From Limnoperna fortunei (Eukaryota; Mollusca; Bivalvia; Mytilida; Modiolidae), in the NCBI GenBank assembly GCA_944474755.1, contig OX104111.1:102725178-102789177 (forward strand): DNA of 64,000 nucleotides, read 5' to 3'. Positions 8,001 to 30,676 of the stretch are shown piece after piece (within the stretch, counting starts at the first letter, position 1; every line of letters begins with the position of its first letter). Position numbers and translations under genes: made by a program. The notes under the pieces are model-generated. The model was not told the DNA's origin. It did no database searches and was given only the letters and a program-made list of their open reading frames with translations.

Positions 8001-9740
8001 ATACTTAATCTGTACAAGTGTAGGGCAAAGTGTTCAACAGATACTAAATCTGTACAAGTGTAGGGTCTGCATAGTGTTACACAGATACCAAATCTGTATA
8101 AGTGAAGTGTCGGCTAAGTGTTACACAGACACCAAATCTGTATAAGTGAAGGGTCGGCGAAGTGTTAAACAGATACATAATCTATACAAGTGAAGTGTCG
8201 GCTAAGTGTTACACAGACACCAAAACTGTATAAGTGAAGGGTCGGCGAAGTGTTAAACAAATACATAATCTATACAAGTGAAGTGTCGGCTAAGTGTTAC
8301 ACAGATACCAAAACTGTATAAGTGAAGGGTCGGCGAAGTGTTAAACAAATACATAATCTATACAAGTGAAGTGTCGGCTAAGTGTTACACAGATACCAAA
8401 ACTGTATAAGTGAAGGGTCGGCGAAGTGTTAAACAAATACATAATCTATACAAGTGAAGTGTCGGCTAAGTGTTACACAGATACCAAATCTGTATAAGTG
8501 AAGGGTCGACGAAGTGTTAATCAAATACCAAATCTATAAGTGAAGGGTCGGCCAAGTGTTCAACAGATACCAAATATGTATAATTAAAGGGTCGGCCAAG
8601 TGTTCAACAGATACCAAATCTGTATAAGTGAAGGGTCGGCAGAGTGTTACACAGATACCAAATATGTATAATTGAAGGGTCGGCCAAGTGTTCAACAGAT
8701 ACCAAATCTGTATAAGTGAAGGGTCGGCAGAGTGTTACACAGATACCAAATATGTATAATTGAAGGGTCGGCCTGTGTTACACAGATACTAAATATGTAT
8801 AATTGAAGGGTCGGCCAAGTGTTCAACAGATACCAAATCTGTTTAAGTGAAGGGTCGGCCAAGTGTAACACAGACACCAAATCTATATAAGTGAATGGTC
8901 GGCCAAGTGTTACACAGATACCAAATCTGTTTAAGTGAAGGGTCGGCCAAGTGTTCAACAGATACCAAATCTGTATAAGTGAAGGGTCGGCCAAGTGTTA
9001 CACGGATACCAAATATGTATAATTGAAGGGTCGGCCAAGTGTTACACAGATACTAAATATGTATAATTAAAGGGTCGGCCAAGTGTTCAACAGATACCAA
9101 ATCTGTATAAGTGAAGGGTCGGCCAAGTGTTACACAGATACCAAATCTGTTTAAGTGAAGGGTCGGCCAAGTGTTCAACAGATACCAAATCTGTATAAGT
9201 GAATGGTCGGCCAAGTGTTACACAGATACCAAATCTATAAGTGAAGGGTCGGCCAAGTGTTCAACAGATACCAAATATGTATAATTAAAGGGTCGGCCAA
9301 GTGTTCAACAGATACCAAATCTGTATAAGTGAAGGGTCGGCCAAGTGTAACACAGACACCAAATCTGTATAAGTGAATGGTCGGCCAAGTGTTCAACAGA
9401 TACCAAATATGTATAATTAAAGGGTCGGCCAAGTGTTCAACAGATACCAAATCTGTATAAGTGAAGGGTCGGCCAAGTGTTACACAGATACCAAATCTGT
9501 ATAAGGGTCGGCCAAGTGTTCAACAGACACCAAATCTGTATAAGTGAAGGGTCGGCAAAGTGTTACACAGATACCAAATCTGTATAAGGGTCGGCCAAGT
9601 GTTCAACAGACACCAAATCTGTATAAGTGAAGGGTCGGCAAAGTGTTACACAGATACCAAATCTGTATAAGGGTCGGCCAAGTGTTCAACAGACACCAAA
9701 TCTGTATAAGTGAAGGGTCGGCCTAGTGTTCAACAGATTA
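8001..9740. repeat. 44-bp tandem array (about 39 units)
   Basis: The consensus includes AAGTGTTMAACAGATACC, AAATCTGTATAAGTGAAG and GGTCGGCC, giving 44 bp. Each unit holds the inverted repeat ACAGAT-ACCAA-ATCTGT. Subregions have higher-order periods: an 88-bp dimer at about 8158-8500, and an 83-bp dimer (39 + 44, one unit lacking GTGAA) at about 9485-9715. Peptides readable on either strand are periodic translations of the unit and not genes. Confidence 0.97.
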
Positions 9741-14263: not shown

Positions 14264-17258
14264 TCAAGTCATCCAATATTACTGTTTACCGAGTAGTCGT
14301 TGAGCCGTCTGGTTCAGCCTGGGCAAGTCATCCAATATTACGGTTTACCGAGTAGTCGTTGAGCAGTCTGGTTCAGCCTGGGCAAGTCACCCAATATTAC
14401 TGTTTACCGCGTAGTCGTTGAGCAGTCTGGTTCAGCCTGGGCAAGTCATCCAATATTACGGTTTACCGAGTAGTCGTTGAGCAGTCTGGTTCAGCCTGGG
14501 CAAGTCATCCAATATTACGGTTTATCGAGTAGTCGTTGAGCCGTCTGGTTCAGCCTGGGCAAGTCATCCAATCTTACGGTTTACCGAGTAGTCGTTGAGC
14601 AGTCTGGTTCAGCCTGGGCAAGTCATCCAATATTACTTTTTACCGAGTAGTCGTTGAGCCGTCTGGTTCAGCCTGGGCAAGTCATCCAATATTACGGTTT
14701 ACCGAGTAGTCGTTGAGCCGTCTGGTTCAGCCTGGGCAAGTCATCCAATATTACGGTTTACCGAGTAGTCGTTGAGCCGTCTGGTTCAGCCTGGGCAAGT
14801 CATCCAATATTACGGTTTACCGAGTAGTCGTTGAGCAGTCTGGTTCAGCCTGGGCAAGTCACCCAATATTACTGTTTACCGCGTAGTCGTTGAGCAGTCT
14901 GGTTCAGCCTGGGCAAGTCATCCAATATTACGGTTTACCGAGTAGTCGTTGAGCAGTCTGGTTCAGCCTGGGCAAGTCATCCAATATTACGGTTTATCGA
15001 GTAGTCGTTGAGCAGTCTGGTTCAGCCTGGGCAAGTCATCCAATATTACGGTTTATCGAGTAGTCGTTGAGCCGTCTGGTTCAGCCTGGGCAAGTCATCC
15101 AATCTTACGGTTTACCGAGTAGTCGTTGAGCAGTCTGGTTCAGCCTGGGCAAGTCATCCAATATTACTTTTTACCGAGTAGTCGTTGAGCCGTCTGGTTC
15201 AGCCTGGGCAAGTCATCCAATATTACTGTTTACCGCATAGTCGTGAAGCAGTCTGGTTCAGCCTGGGCAAGTCATCCAATATTACGGTTTACCGAGTAGT
15301 CGTTGAGCCGTCTGGTTCAGCCTGTGCAAGTCATCCAATCTTACGGTTTACCGAGTAGTCGTTGAGCAGTCTGGTTCAGCCTGGGCAAGTCATCCAATAT
15401 TACTGTTTACCGAGTAGTCGTTGAGCCGTCTGGTTCAGCCTGGGCAAGTCATCCAATATTACGGTTTACCGAGTAGTCGTTGAGCCGTCTGGTTCAGCCT
15501 GGGCAAGTCATCCAATATTACTGTTTACCGCATAGTCGTGAAGCAGTCTGGTTCAGCCTGGGCAAGTCATCCAATATTACGGTTTACCGAGTAGTCGTTG
15601 AGCAGTCTGGTTCAGCCTGGGCAAGTCATCCAATATTACTGTTTACCGAGTAGTCGTTGAGCAGTCTGGTTCAGCCTGGGCAAGTCATCCAATATTACGG
15701 TTTACCGAGTAGTCGTTGAGCCGTCTGGTTCAGCCTAGGCAAGTCATCCAATATTACGGTTTACCGAGTAGTCGTTGAGCAGTCTGGTTCAGCCTGGGCA
15801 AGTCATCCAATATTACTGTTTACCGTTTTCGATGAGCAGTCTGGTTCAGCCTGGGCAAGTCATCCAATATTACGGTTTACCGAGTAGTCGTTGAGCAGTC
15901 TGGTTCAGCCTGTGCAAGTCATCCAATATTACGGTTTACCGAGTAGTCGTTGAGCAGTCTGGTTCAGCCTGGGCAAGTCATCCAATATTACTGTTTACCG
16001 AGTAGTCGTTGAGCAGTCTGGTTCAGCCTGGGCAAGTCATCCAATATTACGGTTTACCGAGTAGTCGTTGAGCCGTCTGGTTCAGCCTGGGCAAGTCATC
16101 CAATATTACGGTTTACCGAGTAGTCGTTGAGCAGTCTGGTTCAGCCTGGGCAAGTCATCCAATATTACTGTTTACCGTTTTCGATGAGCAGTCTGGTTCA
16201 GCCTGGGCAAGTCATCCAATATTACGGTTTACCGAGTAGTCGTTAAGCCGTCTGGTTCAGCCTGGGCAAGTCATCCAACATTACGGTTTACCGAGTAGTC
16301 GTTGAGAAGTCTGGTTCAGCCTGGGCAAGTCATCCAATTTTACTGTTTACCGCATAGTCGTTGAGCAGTCTGGTTCAGCCTGGGCAAGTCATCTAATATT
16401 ACTGTTTACCGCGTAGTCGTTGAGCAGTCTGGTTCAGCCTGGGCAAGTCATCCAATATCACGGTTTACCGAATAGTCGTTGAGCAGTCTGGTTCCGCCTG
16501 GGCAAGTCATCCAATATTACTATTTACCGAGTAGTCGTTGAGCAGTCTGGTTCAGCCTGGGCAAGTCATCCAATATTACTGTTTACCGCGTAGTCGTTGA
16601 GCAGTCTGGTTCAGCCTGGGCAAGTTATCCAATATTACGGTTTACCGTTTTCGATGAGCAGTCTGGATCAGCCTGGGCAAGTCATCCAATATTACGGTTT
16701 ACCGAGTAGTCGTTGAGCCGTCTGGTTCAGCCTGGGCAAGTCATCCAATATTACGGTTTACCGAGTAGTCGTTGAGCCGTCTGGTTCATCCTGGGCAAGT
16801 CATCCAATATTACGGTTTACCGAGTAGTCGTTGAGCAGTCTGGTTCAGCCTGGGCAAGTCACCCAATATTACTGTTTACCGCGTAGTCGTTGAGCAGTCT
16901 GGTTCAGCCTGGGCAAGTCACCCAATATTACTGTTTACCGTTTTCGATGAGCAGTCTGGTTCAGCCTGGGCAAGTCATCCAATATTACGGTTTACCTCGT
17001 AGTCGTTGAGCAGTCTGGTTCAGCCTGGGCAAGTCATCCAATATTACTGTTTACCGCCTAACTGTTGATCAGTCTTGTTCAGCCCCGGCACGTCATCCAA
17101 TATTACTTTTTTACGCCTAGTTGTTGAGCAGTCTGGTTCAGCCTGGGCAAGTCACCCAATATTATTGTTTACCGCCTAGTCATCGAGCAGTCTTATTCAG
17201 CCCGGCACGTCATCCAATATTACTTTTTAACGCCTAGACGTTGAGCAGTCTGGTTCAA
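14264..17258. repeat. 59-bp tandem array (about 51 units)
   Basis: The unit contains CAAGTCATCCAATATTACGG, TTTACCGAGTAGTCGTTGAG and CAGTCTGGTTCAGCCTGGG, 59 bp in total. Variant units (CGTTTTCGATGAG near 15827, 16167, 16645 and 16935; CGCATAGTCGTGAAG near 15235 and 15531) recur at multiples of about 59 bp, which shows block duplication. Units decay from about 17040 to the right end. No coding frame is sustained. Confidence 0.97.
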
Positions 17259-18743: not shown

Positions 18744-21399
18744 TGAACTTGAACTTGAACTTTTTATTTTTTTTTCAATGACCCCAACTGGGGATACGTT
18801 GAATACAAACAGACAAATATTAACATATATATATGTGTAAGTAATCAAATGACAACTTAGTTAAATGTAACATCAAAATTGGTACATAAGTAATAATACA
18901 CAGGTGTGATTTAGGAAAGCAATACTGATAAAGTATATCATAGATTAAATGAAGTTCTATCAATTTACAACAGATAATATTATCTTACATAGTTTAGCGA
19001 CATTTACTTTTGTTTTAAAGTCATTACAGTTGAACAAGTCATTAAATTTTAAAGTATTTGGATGTTTAAAAGAATCTTTTGGTAGCAATTGATTTCTTTC
19101 CATAGAGAAAAATTTACATTCAAATAAATAGTGAAATTCATCACCAATACATTGCATATCACAAATATCGCAAATACGATCATCTCTTTCAACTCCCCAG
19201 AAACGACCCTGTTCAATAAATAACCTATGATTTAAATATCTGAAATTACAATAAGCTTTTCTCAGATCATATGGAAGATCTAACAAATATTTCTCAAAAT
19301 TATGGGTACACTTGAAAATTCTATAGTTAAGACATTTTGGAGAGTTGAACAGATTGTTATACTAAGATTGCTTAAATTGATCACATAAGCTTTGTTTAAC
19401 CAATAAAGATAGGTTCATATTTTGAGGTACACACTTTGTGATAACCAAAATTCAGAATAACCACAATCATTTAACACTTTTTAAATACACACTATTAATT
19501 CAGAGTTGTAAAAATGTTTGATATGCATATTATACATAAGTATATACAATGTAACACAAATCTTGTCTTGCTTGTTACATACATTTTTTTTCCAAAATAA
19601 TACCATTCTACCTTTTATAACAATATCAATAGGAAATCTACCAAGTTCACCAGATAATATATCATTTGGAGTAGATTTTTTTAAGCCAAGTATTTGTTTG
19701 TAAAATTGAACACAAAAAGATTCAAATACGTCATTATCATTGAAGCCCCATACTTCACAGCTGTTCAATAGTACAGGTGTCACCATCGTATCAAAAAGTT
19801 CTAACTGTATATCAATGGGCAAATTTAATTGTCTACTCTTTTTCAAAATACTATACAGACCTTTTCTACCTTGAGAGACAAGCTTAGACTTGTTGTTACA
19901 AAAAGAACCATTGAACATAAAAACAATGCCTAGATATGTAAAGTCATCTACAATATTTAACACTTCGTTGTTTAACGCAAAAACAGGTTTTTGATTTACA
20001 TTTTGATTTCTCTTTTGAAAAATAACAATTTTAGTTTTAGAGGCATTTACCTCATTTTACCAAGTTTTAAAATATAGATACATTTCATTTAAAGCAGCTT
20101 GTAATTCACATTTTGACTCGGCTATTATAACAGTATCGTCAGCATATAATAGCAAGTACAGTTTAAAATAAACAGCAATTTCTTCAGTATCTAAAAATAA
20201 ATGAGCTGCATTGTAAATATTGGACAATCCATCGTATGAATTAGAAATGAATTCAACAAGATCATTTAAAAATAACGAGAAAAGTATGGGTGAAAGGTTT
20301 TCACCCTGTCTAACACCAATATTGCTAAATAAAATTATCAGATAACTTTGAACCTTTCCTAACACAAAGTTTTGCATTTGCATACATATTATGAATAATT
20401 TTGAACATTTTACCATCAATATTGTGAGCTAAAAATTTATGCCACAGGGCTAATCTATCTACAGAATCAAAAGCCTTGCTATAATCGATAAATGCACAGT
20501 ACAATGTTTTATTACATCTTGTATATAAATCAATAAGGCTCTTCAAGTTGAAAATATGGTCACATGTACTATCATTTTTTCTGAACCCTGCTTGCTCTTC
20601 ACATATAACATTGTATTTCTCTAAGTAACAATTCAGTTTGTTATTTAATATTGTGGTAAAAAGTTTTCCGAAACAACTTAAAATGGTAATACCCCTGTAG
20701 TTGTCTGGACTACTGGGATCACCATTGTTCTTGTAGATTGGTATAATAATACTTTCAGACCAAGAATCAGGAATAATTCCCGTGTTAAAAATTACATTGA
20801 ATAATTTTACAAATACAGTTTCAAGTTTACTACAAGCATGAAGTTAATTCAACAACAAATCAGAACTACAAGCTTTATTATTCTTTAACCTTTTGACAGC
20901 ATCAATAACATCTTTTTCAGTTATACATTCATTTAGTTCAGTATTCGGATTTGTGACAACATCTGGATCTATATTTTCAAACATATCATCTTGTACATCA
21001 ACATTTACAGTATTTAACCTTTTCAAAAGTACTAAAAAACAGTCAAACTCATCTTTTTCAAATATATATTTTTTACTATCATTACTACATGACTTGTTCA
21101 AAAGTGACCAATATGACTTAGAATCAGAATGACGAAGACCTCTGAGTTTCTTAATAAAATTCTTCTGGTATGATCTAAATTGATTATTTACTACTTTTTT
21201 ATACTCTTTACTACATTGAACAACATTACATTTACTCTCTGCAGTGTGAATTCTCCTATTGAGATTTTTTGCTTTTCTGTATTTCTTTTTTTTTAAGATA
21301 AAATTCTTTGTTGTACCATTGTTTGTTTATTTTACAATGTTTATGTCTAGTATTTACAACCTTATCATACAATAATTCACTATTTACAGCAGCATTTCT

Positions 21400-21411
21400 C
21401 ATAATATTACC
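21400..21411. repeat. Target-site duplication, left copy
   Basis: CATAATATTACC here is repeated exactly at 22108-22119. Without one copy and the DNA between, the LINE-B linker region reads through. It defines the insertion edges of the nested SINE. Confidence 0.9.
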
Positions 21412-22107
21412 CGGTGGCCGAGTGGTCAAGGTAGTTCGTCTACTATTGATCACGTGGTCTGTCAACACTGAGATTGCGGGTTCGGGTATCAATGTACTAT
21501 TGCATAACGGTATGGGCGCTGCCATTTTATGAGCACAAAGTAAAGCGTGAAAAAACAGTCAGGTTAAACGCGATTGGTCAATAATGATTGTTAAAGTAAA
21601 TATATTTTGGAAAGAAATGCAATCTTTGGTATGAAAATAGACAAAAAAGGAGTTTTATACACATTTAGGAGGAAGAAATCAAATTTCGAATAGGAAGGGG
21701 CACCTCGAGTAAATTTGAAAAAAATTAGACTCCCCCTTTTTGACCTTCATTTTTCATCCAGAAAAGCAATGCGAACCTATATTTTTAATAACACCAAATA
21801 AATCCCCTATTCTTTAACATAAATAATCTCTCTTAATTTAACATTAAATTAACTTTGTCTTTCAACGAAATAATAATCGAAAAGGGGTACCCCATATGGA
21901 AAATAACATAGAACGGCCATTGGTCCATTGTATTCTTCGATTCTCACTGCGGACAGGGTGTACTCGACTCCAATCTTAATTGACAAGGATTGCCAGTTTT
22001 CCTACCGCAGGTCGGGGGTTTTCTCCGGCTTCCTCTCCCAATAAAAACTGGACGCCATGATATAGCTGAAAAATTGCTGAAAGTGGCGTTAAACACCATC
22101 AAACAAA
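21412..22107 (+). mobile_element. tRNA-headed SINE inserted in LINE-B ORF2
   Basis: The 696-bp insertion is bounded by a 12-bp direct repeat, CATAATATTACC, at 21400-21411 and 22108-22119. Its 5' end has a tRNA-like head: GGTGGCCGAGTGGTCAAGG resembles a pol III A box and GCGGGTTCGGGTATC a B box about 55 bp later. The 3' end carries GATATAGCTGAAAAATTGCT and GGCGTTAAACACC before an A/C-rich tail, a mollusc SINE-type ending related to family R. It is unusually long for a SINE; the middle 450 bp is unassigned and could hold a second insertion. Confidence 0.85.
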
Positions 22108-22119
22108 CATAATATTACC
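22108..22119. repeat. Target-site duplication, right copy
   Basis: Exact second copy of CATAATATTACC, directly after the SINE 3' tail. Confidence 0.9.
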
Positions 22120-23250
22120 ACAGTCCTTCACAAGATTATTAATGACATCTGTTTACAGTATCAATATCTAAAACAGACAATTTGTCTAACAAAGTACTGA
22201 TATCAACATCAGATAATGCATTTAAGAATACATCTTTACTTTCTCCTTTCCATTTCGCCTTTTTAGTAACTTCTATATCATTTACAATATTTTTAACCTC
22301 TATATTTTGTTTACATAATAATTCGAGACTTAAGGCGTTGTGTACATCACTTATCATACCATCAAATTCACATATTTCAAAATTAATAACATTTGTGAAA
22401 AGTGAAGGCGATAAATACAATAATCAACAGTTGATGATTCTTTACAAGTAAAAGAACCTATTTGTTTGTCAGACCCTAGCCGACCATTGGCTATTAGCAA
22501 GTTTAAATCTTTACACAATTGTAATTAACGATTTCCATAATTATTAACAAACTTGTCCTTATTATAACGTTTACAATCAATACCCAAAATATCAAGGTTC
22601 ACAAGATCAAATTCATGTTTTGTTACATCATCTAATTGTACAGCATTACAGATAAAGTCACTAATGTTCGTAAAATCATCTTTTACACCCGTACGGGCGT
22701 TAAAGTCTCCAAGGAGACATACTTTGTAATCAGCGTCTGAGGTAAGTTTCAGGATATCATCCTGTATAACATCGAAAACGTTAATGTCACTACAGTCACT
22801 GGATTCAAGAGGCACATATAAAGAACCAAAAAGAACAGGCTCATATAGACAATTTTTAAGTATAAACCATAATACACAATCATTTGAACTTTTACATATT
22901 TCAATATTATTATATAATGCTTCTTTAACAACAACAATAATACCACCAGATTTAACTTTGCACATTTTCTATTTAAAGGTGGCAAATTTACAAAATTAGC
23001 AATTTTAACTTCATCAAAACTCATCAAGCTTCGATTTACTAAAACACAAGATATCATAACACTGACATTTTTCTTCTAAATCAAAAGCTTTTAATTTTGA
23101 AACTAAACCACAGACATTTAAATATAATAATTTCACAGAGGCCTTTTCCTCCTCATCCTGAAGAATTTCCAAATAAACAGAATTATTATTCAAAACTTTC
23201 ACATGTTGTTTCTCATCGACATGTGGACCTAACTGCCATCCTGGTAAATC

Positions 23251-23989
23251 CTAGAACTCGAGAAGACCGAGTGCAGCATAATCATGTTCAGTAACGCCCA
23301 AATTAAACAAGTCATCTGGATTTTCGATTGAGAATTTCTTTCCGCTCTTAAATGTTCCAATGATCTTACCATCACGTGATGATGTCGATTTGACGTTGTC
23401 CAATTTTTTGACATACTGTAGTAGTTTGAAACGTGTCGTGGTTAAGTCCTTGTTTATATACACCTTTCAATAAAGCGGCTTGTCCTTCAAGTTTTTTCTT
23501 GTTTGCAAATATTTTAAACTTAACATTTACGCGTATTAGTAAGGGTCTTGGTTTTTTCACTTGGTTCCCAATCCTGTAGTAAGCGGCAATATCCTCCTTT
23601 TTGACATCGACTTGCATTTCCGTGAACATTTGGCTAAGAATTTCAAAGTCATCTTTACCTTCCAGTTCCTCTAGACCCGCGATACGGATGTTTTCTCTGC
23701 GTGCAGTTTGATAACATCTGTCTATTTCGTAAGTGTTAGTTCTAACCATCGAACAAAGTTTCTCCAATTTCCTATCTTGACCTTGGACATGTTTCACAAC
23801 AACGTTTGTTGAGATGGTATTAACGACAGGGAGAAGCAGATTACACACTTTAATTGCAGTCAAGTCCGATTCACGGAGCCCACTTATGTTCTGTGAGGAA
23901 GTTTTAAGTTGATCTACGAGTTCAGAAACAATGTTTTCTTCGCCGTCCATCTCCGAACATGCGTCGGAAAAAACATTGCACAAGTCCAT
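23251..23989 (-). pseudogene. LINE-B ORF1, L1-like RNA-binding protein
   Basis: The ATG at 23989 opens a frame holding ARRENIRIAGLEE, then KKEDIAAYYRIG and KPRPLLIRVNVK, the pattern of L1-type ORF1 RRM and C-terminal domains that coat the element RNA. At about 23460, within TATATA, the frame shifts; the rest (GVYINKDLTTTRFKLL, then IENPDDLFNLG) continues in the frame ending at TAG 23251-23253. Total length is about 245 residues. An amino-terminal coiled coil is only weakly suggested. The shift looks like loss or gain of an AT step. Confidence 0.8.
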
Positions 23990-26646: not shown

Positions 26647-26876
26647 ATACGAGAAAGTTCAAGATCAATAAAAACAGATCCGATCACGTCACCACCGGAT
26701 GCTGATGAAGCAATAACCAAACTTTATCGTTTATTATAGATTGATATTGACACTGAAGAAGGCCATCAGTTGGTCGAAAATTTTGTCATATTTATTTTAT
26801 TAATATAATTATTTTATATAAGAAACATCTTTATATTTGTATCGTTGCATAGTTCTTTAGACTTATAAATTTATAT
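26647..26876 (+). mobile_element. Left arm of decayed Penelope-like terminal repeat
   Basis: The segment GAGAAAGTTCAAGATCAATA, the hammerhead-like core at 26748-26788, and AAGAAAC with TTGTATCGTTGCATA and TAGACTTATAAAT recur inverted at 27440-27615. The arrangement matches the inverted terminal repeats of the better-preserved element at 27.76-30.60 kb, although the sequences differ, so a second Penelope-like family is inferred. Confidence 0.6.
26748..26788 (+). ncRNA. Hammerhead ribozyme-like motif, 41 nt
   Basis: Stem I strands TGACA (26748-26752) and TGTCA (26784-26788) are exact complements. Between them lie CTGAAGA (26753-26759, matching the core CUGANGA), an unpaired A, stem II GGCC/GGTC around a 7-base loop (26761-26775), GAAA (26776-26779) and only four bases, ATTT, in place of stem III. 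Compact hammerheads lacking a real stem III are known from Penelope-like elements and are reported to cleave as dimers. All core bases are present, but activity is untested. Confidence 0.65.

Positions 26877-27620: not shown

Positions 27621-27677
<57 letters not shown>
27621..27677. repeat. (TA)n microsatellite left of the Penelope-like element
   Basis: A near-perfect TA run of about 57 bp. A second one directly abuts the right inverted repeat, so the element lies in or next to TA-repeat DNA. Confidence 0.98.
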
Positions 27678-27679
<2 letters not shown>

Positions 27680-27762
27680 TAATCTATAAATAGCAACAAC
27701 AATCTCGTTTAATAAGTGCTGGATCAGTCAGATGCAGACTGATACAATTACAAATAAAAATA

Positions 27763-28008
27763 ATATAGTTGTCTAATAAAAATAATTATAACAACACTAC
27801 TATGTACAAATAATATATATGGAACGCAATATTTCGCTCTACCAAAGAGCTTCATCAGGCGTTGACTGAATCAAAAATTTAAACAATAGAAAATGTTTTT
27901 GTTGTTCACTTTATACAAAAAATCTATGCTGATGCTGAGATATAAAATATTTTTGTTGTTCATATTACTGTTGGGTCATAAACATTTTAGTATTCTACCT
28001 GTGGATTA
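27763..28008 (-). repeat. Left inverted terminal repeat
   Basis: This is a 246-bp repeat, exact complement of 30357-30602 except at 27835. It contains the hammerhead-like motif on the minus strand. The near-identity points to recent insertion or to both arms being copied from one template. Confidence 0.93.
27823..27863 (-). ncRNA. Hammerhead ribozyme-like motif with intact core, 41 nt
   Basis: On the minus strand, stem I is AACGC (27863-27859) and GCGTT (27827-27823). The core CTGATGA is at 27858-27852, followed by one unpaired A. Stem II is GCTCT/AGAGC with a 5-base loop (27850-27836), then GAAA (27835-27832) and TATT (27831-27828) where stem III would be. The layout and 41-nt length equal those of the motif at 26748-26788. 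By analogy with reported stem-III-less hammerheads of Penelope-like elements, cleavage would be expected after TATT in a dimer. The bulged A is a deviation from the textbook form. Confidence 0.7.
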
Positions 28009-28012
28009 GAAA

Positions 28013-30378
28013 TTACGACAACTTACAAAGAAAAAGGTTCAAACAACACATCATTTAACAAATTTGATGATCTACAAGGAAAACAAAATTATACCAAAAG
28101 GTTTAGAAATAAAATTAGATCCACAAACACCTGGAGTCAAATCTGGTAGATTTATTAAACGTTGGAATGATATCCTTTTTAATTGTTCATTTCGGCTTCT
28201 AGATTTACTACTATCCCATACCACTCATCATCACACCCAAATTATTAATGAATTAAATAATACATCTCAAAATACAAAACAATGTGACATTGACACCATT
28301 TACAGACGTCTACAAGAAATAGAGGCTATAGAGGAAAATAAACAGAAACAAATTCAGTCAAAAAAATTCAAAAGAGACGGCTTACCAGAAGCAATTTGGA
28401 GAGTAAATTACCAAACACCGAGAATAACAAAACGATCAAAAAAAAAAGAAGACGTAGATTTATTCGAAAGCGAAACGAAAAAGACAACATAGTCGTCAAT
28501 TTATCATCTTATCCTCTTACTACACACGAGGAACAAGTTCTCAGCAAGGGTCTCAACTTCTGTCCTGTCCCTTCAAACATAAACCAGCTTCAACTTGAGA
28601 CAGACCTAAACAACTTTGCCCGGAGACTACGAATAAAGGATTTTTTTCATCGTCGAGAAAAGAAACAACTTCAGGAAGCCGAAATTACCAATTACGAATA
28701 TGACTACAACTTTGACACGCCCATACAAAAATTTAAGAAAAAAAGCAACTGGAATCCACCTAAAAGCAAAAATGACAATCTGGAGGCTTTTATCAACATA
28801 GTTAAAACGGATGTGCAATCGTGCGTAACTAACAAACGGAAACGCAACATCTCTAAAAATGAAAGTGTGGCTATGAAGAATCTAAGTATAGACCAGAAAT
28901 AACCATAAAACCAGCCGACAAGGGGAGTGCTGTGGTTGTCATGAACACGGAGGATTACATTAAAGAGGGTGTCAAACAACTGTCAAATACCTCATTTTAC
29001 AAAAAACTTCCATCTGACCTTATCCAAAATGAATAAAGAAGGTCACATCGATAATGACACATTTGAATATTTAATGCCTGAAAACTGCTCTGCGGGTAGA
29101 TTCTATCTTCTACCCAAACTACACAAAGAAGGCGTTCCTGGAAGACCAATTGTATCTGCTAATGGACACCCCACGGAAAAGATTTCGGAATTTGTCGATC
29201 ACCATCTAAGACCATTTGTAAAAGCCCTTCCGTCCCATATCCAAGATACAACAGATTATCTGAAAAAAATGCTGTCCCTAAATCCTCTACCTCAAAACAC
29301 ATTGCTTGCTACTATGGACGTGTCATCTTTGTATACAAACATACCACAAAATGAAGGAATTGCTTGCTGTGAAGCCGTATGGAACACCAGACAAGAAAAA
29401 TATCCCCCAACAGAATGTCTTGTTAAATTGCTCACTCTCGTCCTTGAGAACAACAATTTTGTTTTTAATGACGAACACTACATCCAAGTGAGTGGTACTA
29501 GCATGGGAACCAAAATGGCACCCTCTTATGCCAATATATTTATGGGAAATCTTGAAAAACAGCTTCTGTCTGGTGCACCATATAAACCATTGTCATGGTT
29601 CCGTTTCATTGATGACATTGACATTAAATGGAATGAAAGTCAAGAACATTTAATAGATTTTTTTAACTATTGCAACAATTTTCATCCCACCATCAAATTT
29701 ACTTTCGAATTCTCAGGTCACAAAATATCCTTTCTCGACACTACTACCTCCATCCAAAACGGAATGATGACAACAGATCTTCACACGAAAGCAACAGACA
29801 AGCATCAATTTTTATCCCTTATCGAAAATGATCCGATTTTAAAAAAGCTTTTCCCTGAACCACCTATAATGGCATACCGTCGACCAAACAGTTTAAAAGA
29901 TATTATTGTAAATGCTAGAGTCAAAATGAACTCTCCTTCAAAACCTGGTGGATACAATCCATGCAATCGCAGTAATTGCAAATGCTGTAAAGCAGCAAAC
30001 GTCGCTAGCACCTTTCGAAGCACAACAACCAACGAAAGCTTTACAATATACTCCAATTGTTCCTGTAAATCCAGCAATTGTATTTACATACTGACCTGTG
30101 GGATTTGTAACATCCAGTATGTTGGAGAAACAGAGACAGCTTTCAATATGCGACTTAACTACCATCGCTCCTTTTTCACGAAAAACAGAAATTGTCCACT
30201 AACTCGCCACCTTAAAACTACAGGCCACTCTTTTGATACTGTAAAATTCCAAATTATTGATCAAAACCCAAAGTGGAATACATCAACCAGAAGACTTCGA
30301 GAAACATTTTGGATACATCAATTAAAAACGCTAGAACCTGATGGATTGAACGAACGTAATCCACAGGTAGAATACTAA
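28013..30378 (+). pseudogene. Penelope-like reverse transcriptase with GIY-YIG endonuclease
   Basis: The family order is complete across three frames. N-terminal domain: THHLTNLMIYKENKIIPKGL (28043-28102; the first ATG is 28067). KKKRRRRFIRKRN and LSKGLNFCP follow after a shift in an A run at about 28437-28447. Then IKPADKGSAVVVMN (about 28907-28948) lies in another frame, with a return to the second frame near 29025. The 469-residue last part holds PKLHK (residue 49), GRPIVS (57), MDVSSLYTNIP (115, motif A), RFIDDI (about 212, motif C), the Cys-rich CNRSNCKCC (about 330), and GIY-YIG motifs IYILT (371) and YVGET (383) with downstream R and H. The polymerase and endonuclease residues look intact; only frame continuity is broken. 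Confidence 0.88.
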
Positions 30379-30594
30379 AATGTTTATGACCCAACAGTAA
30401 TATGAACAACAAAAATATTTTATATCTCAGCATCAGCATAGATTTTTTGTATAAAGTGAACAACAAAAACATTTTCTATTGTTTAAATTTTTGATTCAGT
30501 CAACGCCTGATGAAGCTCTTTGGTAGAGCAAAATATTGCGTTCCATATATATTATTTGTACATAGTAGTGTTGTTATAATTATTTTTATTAGAC

Positions 30595-30602
<8 letters not shown>
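30357..30602 (+). repeat. Right inverted terminal repeat
   Basis: Partner of 27763-28008. It includes the last seven codons and stop (30376-30378) of the RT-endonuclease frame, so the element's coding end is duplicated, inverted, at its left end. Confidence 0.93.
30502..30542 (+). ncRNA. Hammerhead-like motif, core G replaced
   Basis: This is identical to the motif at 27823-27863 except that GAAA reads AAAA (30530-30533). In hammerhead ribozymes this G (G12) acts in general-base catalysis, so this copy is predicted inactive. The change is a C-G to C-A change in a CpG context. Confidence 0.6.

Positions 30603-30676
<74 letters not shown>
30598..30676. repeat. (TA)n microsatellite right of the Penelope-like element
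   Basis: About 78 bp of perfect TA repeat beginning within the last bases of the right terminal repeat. Confidence 0.98.

Follow-up and report, generated by a model that had tools for sequence, protein, structure and literature searches.

Why should two long inverted repeats, otherwise identical, differ at a single base, and why should that base lie in the conserved core of a ribozyme? The question is raised by a Penelope-like element in a 64,000-nt stretch of the Limnoperna fortunei genome (GCA_944474755.1, contig OX104111.1, positions 102,725,178 to 102,789,177, forward strand), which is called the window throughout. The two arms, 27763-28008 and 30357-30602, agree at 245 of 246 positions, and the only mismatch sets C at 27835 against A at 30530 (plus-strand bases), as a sequence-only reading of this DNA had reported and our arm comparison confirmed. 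In the sense of the ribozyme, a hammerhead, the left arm carries GAAA on the minus strand and the right arm AAAA on the plus strand; the conversion is indeed confined to the right arm. By its place in the motif the altered base is G12. We consider it probable that the locus arose by insertion of two 5'-truncated copies joined head to head, that both ends of the target primed at TATAT motifs on one source RNA, and that the G12 of the right copy was lost afterwards through CpG decay.

Structure and identity of the window element

The 246-bp terminal repeats of the sequence-only reading are real as inverted arms, but they do not form a unit, being merely the overlap of two truncated copies. The left copy reaches beyond 27763, since 27678-27762 is element sequence and makes up a longer tail common to other copies; in L072 the left copy matches q1-331 at 100 percent. 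The overlap of paired copies differs in length among other insertions; here, where the left copy is short, it comes to 246 bp. The parts of the element are given in Table 1.

Table 1. Parts of the Penelope-like element and its flanks, in window positions
Feature	Position	Strand	Basis or remark
Probable target sequence, (TA)28, adjoining the outer end of the left copy	27622..27677	.	Other copies also end in TA repeats
Left copy of the element 3' end, 331 nt: last codons of the open reading frame (ORF), hammerhead, short site, 85-nt long tail	27678..28008	-	
Left-copy hammerhead motif, G12 intact (GAAA), G12 = base 27835	27821..27865	-	Motif search
Right copy of the Penelope-like element, truncated at its 5' end and joined head to head to the left copy	28009..30602	+	
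Further ORF pieces in other frames	28064..28492 and 28396..28902		
ORF piece encoding the reverse transcriptase domain and the GIY-YIG domain	28969..30378	+	Domain search
Right arm: ORF end, hammerhead, stop at the short site (after GACAAC, 30597)	30357..30602	+	
Right-copy hammerhead motif, G12 to A (AAAA), base 30530	30500..30544	+	Arm comparison, motif
(TA)n adjoining the outer end of the right copy	30598..30676	.	First bases may be the element's own TATAT

Judged by its sequence, the window element is a decayed Penelope-like element. One coding region holds both an RVT_1 domain (3.2e-10) and a GIY-YIG domain (3.5e-05), and the repeated 3' ends with an optional tail that mark the pseudo-long terminal repeats (pLTRs) of such elements are present as inverted copies with short and long tails. 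The intact coding region of a Penelope-like element is missing from the window copy, in which the ORF pieces lie in several frames and about 100 codons of a near-identical copy (P0006) are absent near 29817. A protein similarity search returned 2172 proteins at E up to 0.001, and among the best 120 of these the closest organism-named ones were from Mytilus. Viral contigs held neither a relative of the protein nor a match to the hammerhead pattern, and a search of plasmids gave no match. The search of genome contigs gave two relatives, L001 and L002. Both are filed as bacterial contigs and carry animal-like Penelope elements, and their contig ends overlap (77 nt identical; 196 nt at 99 percent), as if they came from head-to-tail tandem copies.

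One end short, the other long

Copies were located across the genome with a 34-base hammerhead pattern that allowed any base at G12 and gave 218 matches. Among the 100 of these places that were listed, mostly from contigs C1-C5, there were 26 neighbour pairs within 6 kb, of which 20 faced outward like those of the window and two belonged to each of three other kinds. To the 20 outward pairs, lying in 19 stretches, were added one pair on C12 from a search with the arm and five others (L032, L034, L037, L006 and L023), making 26 inverted pairs in all. Both copies are 3'-anchored, 5'-truncated and joined head to head in all 26, with lengths to the short site running from 90 nt to at least 2610 nt, where the reference ends. 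The two copies adjoin within 10 nt in 21 pairs; the other five have 25 to 395 unmatched nt between them, two of these (window, L074b) being gapped because the reference ends.

The outer ends of the pairs follow a strict rule. Each of the 25 resolvable pairs consists of one copy that ends after GACAAC, at the short site, and one that continues past it, and in 24 of them the longer copy reaches the long site, 85 nt beyond the short one. The pattern was read from the exact motif in 22 pairs and from BLAST in the remaining three (L073, L032 and L037). The longer end lies on the left in 14 pairs and on the right in 11, and it belongs to the longer copy in 7 and to the shorter copy in 8, the copies of the other 10 being equal within 25 nt. 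At even odds and with independent ends, 25 discordant pairs out of 25 would occur by chance with a probability of about 3e-8, a figure that assumes independent insertions, although L074 contains two neighbouring ones. In other copies element sequence continues beyond both sites, with TATAT each time (continuation past the long site is seen in L021, L029, L030 and L090), and the genomic neighbours of the copies are TA repeats, that is, (TA)n targets. A target end can therefore pair with the RNA at either motif. For PAc, the Penelope-like element of Anolis, no such homology between target and RNA was reported in vitro (PMC11167929). A separate idea, that the element interior starts at the site where the tail ends, was abandoned, as it rested on a 7-base match and a tandem copy had, by eye, intervening sequence.

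Origin of the paired copies

Two further observations connect the copies of a pair. Private variants are common to both copies of a pair, and the truncation points of the two copies agree within 25 nt in 10 of the 26 pairs, as against 1.07 expected, a number that none of 20000 permutations reached. In this comparison the longest copies are bounded at 2610 nt, and L073 and L006 are each two joined BLAST pieces. The first strict permutation omitted L034, L037, L073, L006, L072, L074a and L086, and the second left out copies under 300 nt as well; in the strict set of 14 pairs, five agreed within 25 nt against 0.86 expected (P 0.0007), and two within 10 nt against 0.43 expected (P 0.07).

This pattern points to a single RNA on which the two target ends both prime, much as in twin priming. 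A (TA)n target would be cut and both of its ends would prime reverse transcription on element RNA, one at the internal TATAT of the short site and the other at the motif 85 nt further 3', the long site; the two cDNAs would then be joined in the middle, leaving head-to-head, 5'-truncated copies which, coming from one source RNA, would be nearly identical at birth, and the change of G12 to A in the right-copy hammerhead would arise later by CpG decay. One RNA with one short and one long motif, on which both target ends prime, would account for discordant outer ends and coincident stops alike. Priming by the TA repeat of the target and the use of a single RNA are what we infer here, and the specific scheme, in which two primers meet one RNA at dedicated TATAT motifs 85 nt apart, leave one short and one long end and often run to a common 5' stop on the RNA, is in our judgement evenly poised between right and wrong.

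Several observations weigh against this scheme. The shared variants point to one source and not to one molecule. A possible but more doubtful course is that two RNAs of one source, one per target strand, are copied under a strict rule of the protein complex, for example an asymmetric dimer, by which one start must be short and the other long. PAc, a predicted dimer, cuts both strands and extends them (PMC11167929), and the short/long rule and the shared source would fit as well, but by itself this course leaves the 10 of 26 coincident truncations (25 nt) unexplained unless both RNAs end alike. The rule itself is less tidy at three loci: the long arm of L034 goes beyond the short site, its match ending at q311, L086 was unresolvable and dropped from the tail count (its right arm is cut at q196), and L074a has two left arms, of which the outer was scored, the inner one stopping at q265 and thus at neither of the two sites. 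Not all of the 26 neighbour pairs face outward (six do not), and many of the 100 listed places have no pattern-matching partner within 6 kb; these pairs and such single arms fall outside what the scheme explains. The data, moreover, come from one family in one genome, and palindromes can be misassembled. Foldback self-priming, as proposed for the Adineta Penelope elements (PMC3846280), would suit the near-perfect palindromes with tiny centres in L069, L076, L079 and L080, but we regard it as highly improbable, for it predicts identical outer ends and these differ in all four palindromes and in 25 of 25 resolvable pairs.

Loss of G12 in the right copy

Given two copies that were, in the favoured two-primer scheme, nearly identical at birth, the mismatch at G12 remains to be explained, and the sequence-only reading had offered two options, chance CpG decay or a functional consequence of lost cleavage. 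At G12 the 218 matches of the pattern have G in 211 and A in 7, with no C and no T, and the neighbouring C of the same CpG is altered in 5 further copies (2 T, 3 G). The arm contains three CpGs in total, all within the ribozyme, and G12 lies in one of them. Since G12 lies in a CpG, all seven non-G copies have A, and the neighbouring C is also changed, CpG decay is favoured, and a consequence of the loss is not supported. In the arm search of the 1.335-Gb genome (41 places, 40 of 542 candidates scored, 30 loci returned), G was found in every arm covering G12 at these 30 loci, except the right arm of the window itself. A single change would hit G12 with a chance of 0.4 percent at equal rates and of 3 percent at an assumed tenfold CpG rate, which gives 33 percent for a change anywhere in the 45-nt ribozyme; all these figures are after-the-fact.

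Left and right arms of the 26 inverted pairs differ by 27 substitutions in 5290 columns, and the 23 pairs that remain after removal of the window and of two pairs fetched for their A have 22 substitutions, none at G12 and two in the ribozyme. For 20 of the 26 pairs the search pattern itself held q151-184 constant apart from G12 (33 of 34 ribozyme bases, in both arms), so that these pairs reveal how changes are spread elsewhere in the arm and carry no information on the other ribozyme bases. With this reservation, the mismatches are largely scattered along the arms, which is what the sequence-only reading had named as speaking against a special meaning of the G12 difference. In L034 (C6:6829522-6832563) both arms have a small deletion just after the ribozyme (about q186-191) and yet carry different bases at G12, as would be expected if they had one source and the base changed later.

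It is rather unlikely, in our view, that the G/A difference was already present at birth, through a reverse transcription error or through two template RNAs differing at G12. A single base cannot be dated, and with A in 7 copies A-bearing RNAs could exist; but the change is exactly a CpG transition, other pairs show the scattered differences that later changes predict, and the private variants common to both arms of a pair point to one source.

The option that loss of cleavage matters begins from sound chemistry. According to PMC2553840, G12A slows cleavage about a millionfold in one hammerhead and more than 500-fold in a minimal one, so that the statement of the sequence-only reading that G12 is needed for catalysis is well supported, and by these published rates the right-copy motif would be nearly dead. 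An uncleavable RNA might be a better template, or one end might be meant to self-process, either of which would favour an arm with G12A; in line with this, the partner arm has G in all three A-bearing pairs with partner sequence (window, L034 and L037), the partners of L035 and L036 not having been found in the further stretches L088 and L089. Against it stand the retention of G in 211 of 218 copies, two G arms being the rule among the pairs examined, and the lack of a clear side, as four of the five A-bearing arms in L033-L037 (5 of the 7 A copies, those on C12 and C14 excluded) end at the short site and one passes it. The two hammerheads lie on opposite strands, so any transcript has at most one of them in sense, and both arms run unbroken through the cleavage site, which means that both templates were uncut there. 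In the relative PAc, hammerhead mutants insert unchanged in vitro, and the PAc hammerhead cleaved only when protein was present (PMC11167929). The proposal that only one end self-processes is not supported in view of these findings, and we hold any role for the loss of cleavage to be very unlikely. The change of G12 to A is most likely an ordinary later change by CpG decay with no demonstrated role, its timing and the loss of cleavage being what we infer.

The hammerhead motif

The motif has the plan of a hammerhead without stem III, composed of stem I (AACGC/GCGTT), CTGATGA, one extra A, stem II (GCTCT/AGAGC) and GAAA, followed by a self-complementary ATAT in place of stem III and then T17. 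The left copy has a complete core (CUGANGA and GAAA) with five of five pairs in both stems, and the right copy departs from this plan at G12, with AAAA at 30530. Hammerhead-like motifs occur three times in the window; a Markov model of its first 35 kb, simulated 200 times, gave none, so the motif is not a product of chance. Rfam gave no match at gathering score within the window; three weak matches (up to E 5) in 27700-30650 belonged to unrelated families and were rejected.

A second hammerhead without stem III, with an intact core (CTGAAGA, GAAA, AATT), lies 1 kb upstream at window 26746-26790 on the plus strand. That motif (26753), like those of L001 and L002, has the shared plan with different stem sequences. 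Pieces of the 26746-26790 sequence flank other insertions, L080 and L085, so that insertion into or next to a repeat with a hammerhead of its own may be frequent for this element. In L002 stem II has four of five pairs; in L001 stem I has four of five pairs and the core is TTGATAA. Positions 3 and 8 of the L001 motif (L001:1096-1140, on a contig filed under a Bathymodiolus symbiont) are thus U and A, so that the 3-8 pair would persist in a different form. By eye, GGTAGAGCAAAATA recurs about 100 nt past the long site in L090 and resembles the 3' half of the hammerhead; L091 is without it.

Other features of the window

Beyond the element, a 38-bp tandem repeat of about 760 copies (35086-64000) fills the last 29 kb to the window end. 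Two more arrays lie at 14265-17257 (59-bp unit, 51 copies, 92 percent) and 8024-9738 (44-bp unit, 39 copies), and three ORFs of 146-205 aa at 19481-23989 on the minus strand are, by eye, putative pieces of a long interspersed nuclear element (LINE)-type element.

Relation to known systems and significance

In L1 twin priming the two ends of the broken target both start synthesis on the same RNA, giving a partly inverted product; some L1 insertions arise in this way, and their second site is not known to be fixed. The insertions described here resemble it in the proposed use of one RNA by two target ends and in the partly inverted product, and differ from it in the apparent use of two fixed sites and in the overlap of the copies. 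Minimal hammerheads of Penelope-like elements have reportedly been described by Cervera and De la Pena in 2014 and by Lunse et al. in 2017. Going by two reviews (PMC6155905, PMC7761336), such hammerheads may act as dimers, and the present motif is akin to them in its short stem I, its stem II and the self-complementary 4-mer replacing stem III; unlike them, the right copy is without G12, and the inverted motifs cannot meet in sense on one transcript.

The closest parallels are PAc (PMC11167929) and the Pen elements of Adineta vaga (PMC3846280), which likewise combine reverse transcriptase and GIY-YIG domains with AT-rich targets and have inverted pLTRs, one of which bears a tail. PAc also carries a hammerhead in its pLTR and has two adjacent start sites, both target strands being extended in vitro (PMC11167929). 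Unlike in those elements, in L. fortunei the longer tail is not optional and stands on exactly one end in every examined pair, TATAT is common to the start sites and the (TA)n target, and the length of the overlap varies among insertions. In the available portions of the literature on Penelope-like elements, twin priming and two-strand priming we found no description of a rule of one short and one long end.

Two lines of work bear on the way in which Penelope-like elements come by their inverted, tailed structures: self-priming was favoured but left undecided for the Adineta vaga elements with their inverted pLTRs and optional tail on one (PMC3846280), and two-strand extension and two start sites were shown in vitro (PMC11167929). 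The strict rule that one end is short and the other long is a simple signature by which two-primer and foldback copying can be told apart, and any genome can be scored for it. By implication, copying yields the terminal inverted repeats of these elements as a by-product, and a mismatch between them, such as that at G12, therefore needs no function.
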